Assembly (NCBI GenBank): GCA_017857425.1
Contig: JAFMDE010000007.1
Coordinates: 1-32,428 of the forward strand
Direction: 5' to 3'
Source of the DNA: Akkermansiaceae bacterium
GTDB taxonomy: Bacteria; Verrucomicrobiota; Verrucomicrobiia; Verrucomicrobiales; Akkermansiaceae
Length of the DNA stretch: 32,428 nt
Shown here: positions 30,102 through 32,428 of the stretch, piece after piece
How positions within the stretch are numbered: the first letter of the stretch is position 1
Layout of the letters: each line of letters begins with the position of its first letter
The notes under the pieces: generated by a model
Seen by the model: only the letters and a program-made list of their open reading frames with translations
The model's database searches: none
What the model was told of the DNA's origin: nothing
Translations under genes and position numbers: made by a program

Positions 30102-32428
30102 ATGGATGTAAGTAATGGCAGAGCTCGTGCTAGCACGGGCAACAAGCGCCGTAAAAAGCGATTCTTCAAGCTAAAATGGCTTCTGTATCTTTTTGTCATC
30201 GGCTTGATCCTCGGGCTCTTGGCCTTTTGGGTTTTTGAACAGCAGACGAAGAAATTTCGAGACCGGGCGGAAATTTACAATCTTGAGGAGATAGACAATG
30301 TTGAGGTGAAGAGCCTTATCCTAGATCGTAAGGGTCGTGAACTAGGCCGTATTTTTGTTGAGAATCGGGATAAGATCAGCATCAAGGATGTGCCGAAGGT
30401 GATGATCGATGCCCTGGTTGCAGGCGAAGATCAGAGGTTCTTTGCGCATGATGGGGTTGACCGAATTGGGGTGATCCGTGCTGTCTATATAAACCTGAAA
30501 GCTGGGCGCCAGACTCAAGGAGCCAGCACTCTTACCCAGCAGTTGGCACGCAACGCATTTCACCTCAAACAAGAAGCGGATAAGCGAGGTGAGGGGGGCT
30601 TGGAGCGTAAAGCGGTGGAGGCCTTCCTTGCGCTGCGTATTGAAAAAAAATACAGCAAAGAGGAAATCCTTGAGTTTTACCTGAATCGCATTCCTTTCGG
30701 AAGTGGTTTCTACGGCATCCGGTCAGCGTCTCTTGGTTACTTTGGAAAAGAGCCACGTGATCTTTCTGCGATGGAGTGCGCATCACTTGTAGGCTGCATC
30801 AAAAACCCTACCAGAATTTCCCCGCTCAATAATGTAAAGGAAAACAAAAAGGCGAGAGATCAGGTGTTGCAGAGGATGGTTGACGAGGGTTTTATTTCTT
30901 CCAAGGAGGGTAAGATATACCGAAATACTCCAGTTGTTGTGAGGCCAAACCCAATCCGCCGAGGCACCTCCCATCTCTATGAGAGAGTTGCTAATGCTGT
31001 CCGTTCTCGGCTTGGCGAAGATGCTCTCACTGAGGGAGGATTCAAGATCTACACTACGATCGACCTCGATGTTCAGCAGGCGATGGAAAAAAGTCTTTTG
31101 AGACAGCTCTCTATTGCTGAATCACATGAACTCTATGAACAGCCGCTTTATGATTCATATCGCAAACGAGACGGTAAGCCTAATTACCTTCAGGCGGCAG
31201 GCTACATGATCGATAATGAGAGCGGCTCTGTATTAGCCTATATTGGTGGTAGGGATTTCACGCATAGCCAGTACGACTTTGTAGAGTCGGGCAGTAAGCC
31301 CTCAGGCACCGCGTTTTTTCCATTCATCTACACGGCGGCGCTTGAAAATGGAATGTCACCTGTTACGAGGCTAATAGATCGCCCCATGGATAATCGCGCG
31401 GTGATGGTTGATGGGCGTGAGGGTATTCTAGGAGAGTGGGGCATGGAGACTTTGCAACCCAAGTATGAGGGCGACATCAGTATGCGTCGCGCCATGGAGG
31501 TTTCCAAAATTGCCGCGTCTGTTCGCCTAGGAAAAGAAGTCGGCTTGGCTCGTGTGATGCAGACAGCTCGTAAGTTTGGACTCTCTCTCCCAGAAACAAA
31601 GCTGCTAGCACGGATGCTTGTCGGTGCCGATGACGTTTCGCTTCCTGAGATGGTGAATGCTTACGCAACCTTTGCGAGGGCTGGTTATGCACCTAGGCCT
31701 GCATCTTTTATAGATCGCGTTGTCGGGCCTAAAGGGATTATTCGTTACAAAGCAATCGGCGCAAGTAGCGAGGGTAATAAACGTGTTATTAGCCGTGAAA
31801 CGGCCTACATCATGAATAGCATGCTGCAGAGTTCCTTAACTGAAGGCACGGGTAAATCAGGCATTGCAGAACTGACCAGTGATGCATCCCTTGCCGGCAA
31901 AACGGGAACTACCTATGATTTTGCTGATAATTGGTTCATCGGATACAACAGTCGTGTTACCTGCGGTTTGTGGATGGGGTTTGTGCATGGCTCAAGAAAA
32001 GCTATTTACACGGGGGCATTCAGCAGGCAGACATTGTTACCTGTTTGGGTGAAGGCAATGAATGCAGCCCTGTCAGATTTTTCAGGTCGAGAGATGACTC
32101 AGCCTAACTCAGTTTCGCGCCTCGAGGTTTGCTCTGTTACAGGTTTGCGAGGGACACGCTATTGCCAGAAATACCAACGAAACGTGCTTACGGGTGCCGA
32201 GTCGTATCAATCAACCACGGTAGAGGAACTGTTCACCGCAGAATCTCAGCCTACTGGCTACTGCGACGTACACGGAGTGATTGATCCAGCTATTGCAAAT
32301 CATGATAGCTTTGATTCTGATAAAAAACAAGTTAGTCATTCTCCTGTTATTCCCATCCAACCTAAGCAGCCAGTTTTGCTCGGTGGTGATCCCTATGGTA
32401 CGGAGCAGCCAGATTTTGCTCCCAGAGA
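30102..32428 (+). CDS. Class A penicillin-binding protein with degenerate transpeptidase motifs, 3'-truncated
   Basis: A peptidoglycan-polymerising protein, 775 codons visible and still open at the window edge. Order: basic cytoplasmic tail (1-24), membrane helix (about 25-44), glycosyltransferase domain (about 65-250), linker, transpeptidase-like domain (about 365-655), and a C-terminal part with two cysteine pairs and a proline-rich tail. GT51 motifs are intact: EDQRFFAHDGV (Glu109), GASTLTQQLARN (140-151), RKAVEAFLALRIE and the later EFYLNRIPFGSGFYGI. The transpeptidase motifs are altered: SxxK is TAFF (403-406), SxN is SKI (468-470), while KTGT (600-603) is kept. So the protein probably polymerises glycan strands but should not cross-link or bind beta-lactams normally. 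I verified the frame codon by codon across the altered motifs. Confidence 0.93.
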   Translation, partial: MDVSNGRARASTGNKRRKKRFFKLKWLLYLFVIGLILGLLAFWVFEQQTKKFRDRAEIYNLEEIDNVEVKSLILDRKGRELGRIFVENRDKISIKDVPKVMIDALVAGEDQRFFAHDGVDRIGVIRAVYINLKAGRQTQGASTLTQQLARNAFHLKQEADKRGEGGLERKAVEAFLALRIEKKYSKEEILEFYLNRIPFGSGFYGIRSASLGYFGKEPRDLSAMECASLVGCIKNPTRISPLNNVKENKKARDQVLQRMVDEGFISSKEGKIYRNTPVVVRPNPIRRGTSHLYERVANAVRSRLGEDALTEGGFKIYTTIDLDVQQAMEKSLLRQLSIAESHELYEQPLYDSYRKRDGKPNYLQAAGYMIDNESGSVLAYIGGRDFTHSQYDFVESGSKPSGTAFFPFIYTAALENGMSPVTRLIDRPMDNRAVMVDGREGILGEWGMETLQPKYEGDISMRRAMEVSKIAASVRLGKEVGLARVMQTARKFGLSLPETKLLARMLVGADDVSLPEMVNAYATFARAGYAPRPASFIDRVVGPKGIIRYKAIGASSEGNKRVISRETAYIMNSMLQSSLTEGTGKSGIAELTSDASLAGKTGTTYDFADNWFIGYNSRVTCGLWMGFVHGSRKAIYTGAFSRQTLLPVWVKAMNAALSDFSGREMTQPNSVSRLEVCSVTGLRGTRYCQKYQRNVLTGAESYQSTTVEELFTAESQPTGYCDVHGVIDPAIANHDSFDSDKKQVSHSPVIPIQPKQPVLLGGDPYGTEQPDFAPR

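Follow-up and report, generated by a model that had tools for sequence, protein, structure and literature searches.

The gene, its neighbours and its two domains

The window, a stretch of 32,428 nucleotides from an Akkermansiaceae bacterium, ends in a gene for a class A penicillin-binding protein (aPBP) with a putative pseudo-transpeptidase (30102-32428; coordinates refer to the forward strand unless stated otherwise). The gene is a single open reading frame (30102-32426, 775 residues) that stays open to the contig end. Codons 1-775 of 814 lie in the window, and the final 39 are located on contig C42 (L131) of the same assembly, which shares a 55-bp overlap with the end of the window. The completed protein of 814 aa has the length of an ortholog with 96% identity. 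Since contig C42 supplies the missing end, a truncated gene was ruled out.

On the other side, the gene is adjoined by a divergently oriented gene for a MidA-type SAM methyltransferase (PF02636; 28875-30053, reverse strand), as it is in other families and orders. The neighbour was present beside the orthologs of the window, of families f14 and f27 and of G050, one of the species with an SxxK motif, which supports true orthology. Nothing recognisable as a divisome gene lay beside the PBP gene. Downstream it is followed by two genes that matched no Pfam family (L131:256-2975, on contig C42), encoding proteins of 421 aa, with a CPVC-type zinc-ribbon start, and 468 aa. This pair follows the PBP gene in the genus and, judged by the look of the sequences, in genus g3 as well (L222).

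From the translation, a sole N-terminal transmembrane segment was predicted (30180-30239, around residues 27-46), from which the topology was inferred. It is followed by a complete GT51 glycosyltransferase (GT) domain (30336-30878, residues 79-259; PF00912 Transgly, 197 bits). To a preliminary description of this DNA the GT motifs had looked complete and, indeed, the catalytic glutamate and all five conserved motifs of class A PBPs were found (EDQRFFAHDG, GASTLTQQ, RKAVE, KEEILEFYLN and RDQVL). E109 and E173 showed no variation in the 34 orthologs compared, and E109, the first and catalytic glutamate, was retained in 138 of 138 orthologs.

The second domain has a transpeptidase (TP) fold with a non-canonical active site (31206-31952, residues 369-617) and matched PF00905 weakly, at 62 bits. 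In place of SxxK it carries T403-A-F-F406 (31308-31319; T403 codon 31308-31310, F406 codon 31317-31319) and, as seen in the alignment to PBP1a and the orthologs, SxN is replaced by S468-K469-I470 (31503-31511). The KTG motif is retained as K600-T601-G602 (31899-31907), and KTG or KSG was present in 126 of the 136 orthologs that span the motif. In profile alignments T403 and F406 fell on the catalytic Ser and Lys of solved PBP1a structures (4OON, GSSFKPF; 3UDF, GSTIKPF), and I470 was aligned with the SxN Asn, exactly the three replacements that had been read from the sequence before. The same TAFF and SKI motifs were found in independent genomes at 96%, 84% and 70% identity. A sequencing error at 31310-31325, named earlier as a refuting case, and a frameshift were therefore ruled out.

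Distribution, motif states and probable order of losses

Matches to the window PBP were found in all 58 near relatives searched and in 104 of 105 genomes spread across Verrucomicrobiales. An ortholog set of 138 sequences was compiled from 137 genomes (one with two copies), covering Verrucomicrobiales and three families of neighbouring orders. At the nucleophile position 136 orthologs have Thr and two have Ser. The Lys of SxxK was retained in 17 and lost in 121 orthologs, being replaced by L (47), T (32), F (23), I (9), M (5), V (3), Q (1) or A (1). At SxN, 66 of the 138 still had the Asn; neither Lys nor Asn survived in any member of f1, the family of the window. Members with TxxK belonged to f2 (many, with TxxK/SxN/KTG), f5 and one species of f14, mostly with SxN and KTG. 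The full triad SxxK/SxN/KTG was present only in two sister species of genus g28. Among the comparison rows of the same alignment, all 10 canonical paralogs had SxxK/SxN/KTG and all 13 PBP1C-like proteins had Ser and Lys. Thus, of the earlier question whether TxxF/SxI is fixed, the Thr and the loss of Lys held up, but it is only Thr, mostly without the Lys, that extends across the order, and not the exact TxxF/SxI. Orthologs with a normal SxxK, named beforehand as a refuting case, do occur in the two g28 species, which are distant relatives, and in none of the close genomes.

In a phylum-wide sample, a strong match to the profile of the family was obtained in only 24 of 145 genomes. This agrees with published work in which many PVC bacteria were reported to have no aPBPs and Akkermansia to retain one (PMC8406291). 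The searches also returned a second kind of degenerate aPBP of about 550-640 aa, with an intact GT51 domain and a ruined TP domain (AAFE, DLFT; L079, L080, L081 and L127), which in L079 and L080 lies in tandem with a canonical aPBP; no protein of this kind was detected in the genome of the window. A third degenerate lineage consists of aPBP-like open reading frames of about 1200-1370 codons with three altered TP motifs (e.g. SLLQ/ANG/MTG) and was found in other orders of the class (L104, L105, L123, L124, L125 and L130). In addition, many IMG/VR contigs (L156-L187, many of 128-529 kb and thus jumbo-phage-sized) contain a GT51-like domain with 28-39% identity, in open reading frames that reach far past the domain. 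A domain of the wall-building type is unexpected in phages. One contig (L048, genome G057, 5.1 Mb) is titled Akkermansia muciniphila, yet its family differs from that of the window, and the title looks wrong.

Trees were built without the catalytic columns. The orthologs formed one clade separate from canonical aPBPs (SH-aLRT 99-100). Sequences of families f14, f22 and f27, from outside the order, branched outside most Verrucomicrobiales sequences and already have Thr. A lineage-specific role had been considered possible in the preliminary description; with members in three families beyond the order, the family is older than one lineage. The change from Lys to another residue required at least 10 state changes on the tree and that between Ser and Thr required two, which makes an early loss of Ser and repeated losses of Lys probable. 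Constraining all Thr rows to one clade cost 21 log-likelihood units (p-AU 0.056), so that a single Thr clade is not firmly decided, and the two SxxK species of g28 have either kept or regained Ser.

The window's genome, which is 92.6% complete, contains two GT51 genes, one for the window protein and one for an intact paralog on contig C165 (SLFK/SRN/KTG); the other intact class A PBP that the preliminary description suggested looking for is thus present. It also encodes three class B PBPs with intact SxxK/SxN/KTG, two SEDS proteins and five YkuD matches. With the intact aPBP paralog, the class B PBPs and the YkuD matches, crosslinking is therefore possible by other enzymes. Two small genomes from genus g5, both roughly 90% complete, had the window protein's ortholog as the only GT51 match, next to three class B PBPs, and there it appears to be the sole GT51 enzyme. 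If the gaps in these genomes hide no second GT51 gene, the protein is more than a helper of the canonical aPBP.

Selection, predicted fold and possible roles of the transpeptidase domain

Among close relatives with unsaturated synonymous sites, dN/dS of the TP region was 0.03-0.11, similar to the rest of the protein, and that of the GT region was mostly lower still. The reading frame and the TP fold are thus maintained by purifying selection, so that a new function other than catalysis is probable for this domain. AlphaFold was run on the TP region alone (434 residues, 21 rows including added distant aPBP rows) and predicted the standard aPBP transpeptidase fold (pLDDT 83.9, pTM 0.88). The model aligned with the transpeptidases of PBP1a and PBP1b at Z scores of about 42 (rmsd 3.0-3.2 over 351-371 residues; Z 41.9 for Acinetobacter baumannii PBP1a). 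In this model T403 is predicted at the start of a helix, like the nucleophile of PBPs, and KTG is predicted on a strand, like in active enzymes.

From residue 285 on, 35 strongly conserved positions are common to the pseudo-transpeptidase clade and the canonical paralog. About 30 further positions are at least 90% conserved in the clade and less so in the paralog, and several of them lie in the 426-449 loop and at the C-terminus. For instance, in the lineage-specific loop D430-E449 (31389-31448), D430, N431, G441, E445, G447 and E449 are 90-100% conserved in the clade, and this conservation was not found in the canonical paralog. The loop was modelled at low confidence, with residues 447-451 below pLDDT 50. 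At the C-terminus, a G761-x-D-P-Y motif (32382-32396) is more conserved in the clade than in the canonical one, whereas a Cys/His set (C677, C688, C721 and H724; 32130-32273) is shared with the paralog.

We consider it probable that the window protein polymerises lipid II and that its TP domain has become a non-catalytic module for structure, docking or regulation. An ancestral duplicate of a class A PBP would have lost D,D-transpeptidase chemistry, with Ser changing to Thr first, the general-base Lys then being lost repeatedly and the SxN Asn being lost in the window's family, while the TP fold would have been retained as a non-catalytic module. The membrane-anchored GT51 protein would most likely polymerise glycan strands that are crosslinked by others, be it the intact paralog, the three class B PBPs or L,D-transpeptidases. 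The pseudo-transpeptidase, which has a conserved loop (430-449) and C-terminal motifs of its own, would then serve the polymerase structurally, in docking or as a regulator. Because nucleophile, base and SxN Asn are lost, acylation by a donor peptide or a beta-lactam is very unlikely under the established PBP mechanism (reviewed in PMC4810414), and judging from its residues the window protein should not acylate beta-lactams. That the fold and KTG are kept, together with a clade-specific loop, suggests a role in binding, in docking or as a scaffold. Since KTG and the Ser of SxN are still in place, the domain may bind some ligand or carry out unusual chemistry.

Work on Streptococcus pneumoniae PBP2a suggested that the conformation at the TM-GT interface determines how active an aPBP is as a polymerase (PMC10746261), and a Clostridioides difficile PBP1 with a dead TPase can still sustain the synthesis of the septum (PMC12539705). 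These findings make a polymerase-only aPBP plausible without proving it.

The conserved residues of the pseudo-transpeptidase could be purely structural, without a regulatory role. That the fold serves only as a scaffold for folding or stability of the GT domain, with no binding or regulatory partner, agrees with the 35 positions shared with the canonical paralog, many of which are glycines or belong to the core of the shared fold. The roughly 30 clade-only positions, however, suggest a new interface, and monofunctional GT51 enzymes function without any TP domain (PMC4810414). We regard a mere scaffold as unlikely. Slightly more doubtful still is a TP domain that remains catalytic, with Thr as nucleophile and with either the KTG Lys or a conserved Glu in the loop 430-449 acting as base. 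Thr rather than random residues in 136 of the 138 orthologs, the kept KTG and several f2, f5 and f14 species that are complete except for Ser (TxxK/SxN/KTG) would fit such an enzyme, and TxxK lineages may indeed have some remaining activity with Thr as nucleophile. However, the window lineage has hydrophobic residues at both the Lys and the Asn positions, and the exchange of Lys for eight different residues is as expected of a non-catalytic site. Least probable is ordinary decay to a monofunctional glycosyltransferase with the TP domain as a functionless remnant: the other degenerate aPBPs of the phylum, some with a truncated TP domain, show that such erosion occurs, but the low dN/dS, the intact frame and length in nearly all 138 orthologs and the clade-specific residues within the domain make it improbable, as the preliminary description had already argued from the intact frame and other motifs.

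Going beyond a lipid II polymerase with a non-catalytic module, we tentatively suggest that this near-universal paralog might be a naturally penicillin-blind polymerase, in which the TP domain serves as a non-covalent sensor or docking module that gates the GT domain. Its ligand might be stem peptides or a partner protein, and nearly the whole order might then possess a two-part class A PBP system; we hold this as a possibility and no more.

The role of the aPBP transpeptidase domain beyond crosslinking is usually probed with engineered mutants, and here a natural, old and order-wide separation-of-function family is available. The TxxK and SxxK relatives are built-in controls, and in two small genomes the protein is apparently the sole GT51 enzyme. 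If a survey scored the protein as a standard bifunctional aPBP, it would misestimate both the crosslinking capacity of these bacteria and their beta-lactam targets. Most of the nearest named relatives carry the title Akkermansiaceae or Verrucomicrobiales, the former being the family of the gut symbiont Akkermansia.

Comparison with known systems

In the titles, abstracts and passages of the open-licence literature that were searched, no description of a natural, conserved pseudo-transpeptidase aPBP was found, which is weak evidence of absence. Like PBP1a of Pseudomonas aeruginosa (4OON) and A. baumannii (3UDF), the window protein combines GT51 and TP domains with an N-terminal anchor, the GT motifs, the TP fold and KTG. 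In contrast to the PBP1a type, its SxxK and SxN are destroyed and the insert between linker and TP domain is absent, while the lineage-specific loop 430-449 and the C-terminal DPY motif are added. The canonical verrucomicrobial aPBP paralog (L084, on contig C165 of the window's own genome) shares about 31-33% identity and the C-terminal Cys/His pattern, but it has kept SLFK/SRN/KTG and belongs to a separate clade.

The monofunctional glycosyltransferases MtgA and SgtB polymerise lipid II without crosslinking, as is predicted for the window protein. However, they have no TP domain at all (PMC4810414), whereas the window protein conserves the full fold. C. difficile PBP1 S487A (PMC12539705) likewise keeps its GT domain with an inactivated TP domain, but it is an engineered single substitution that cannot support growth, while the loss in the window family is natural, old and nearly fixed. 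Of the features of bifunctional class A PBPs, the window protein has the GT51 domain, the PF00905 match above the cut-off, the TP fold and KTG, but TAFF and SKI stand where SxxK and SxN are expected; a monofunctional glycosyltransferase would consist of GT51 alone, and here a TP fold is present. The protein thus departs from both classes in these features.
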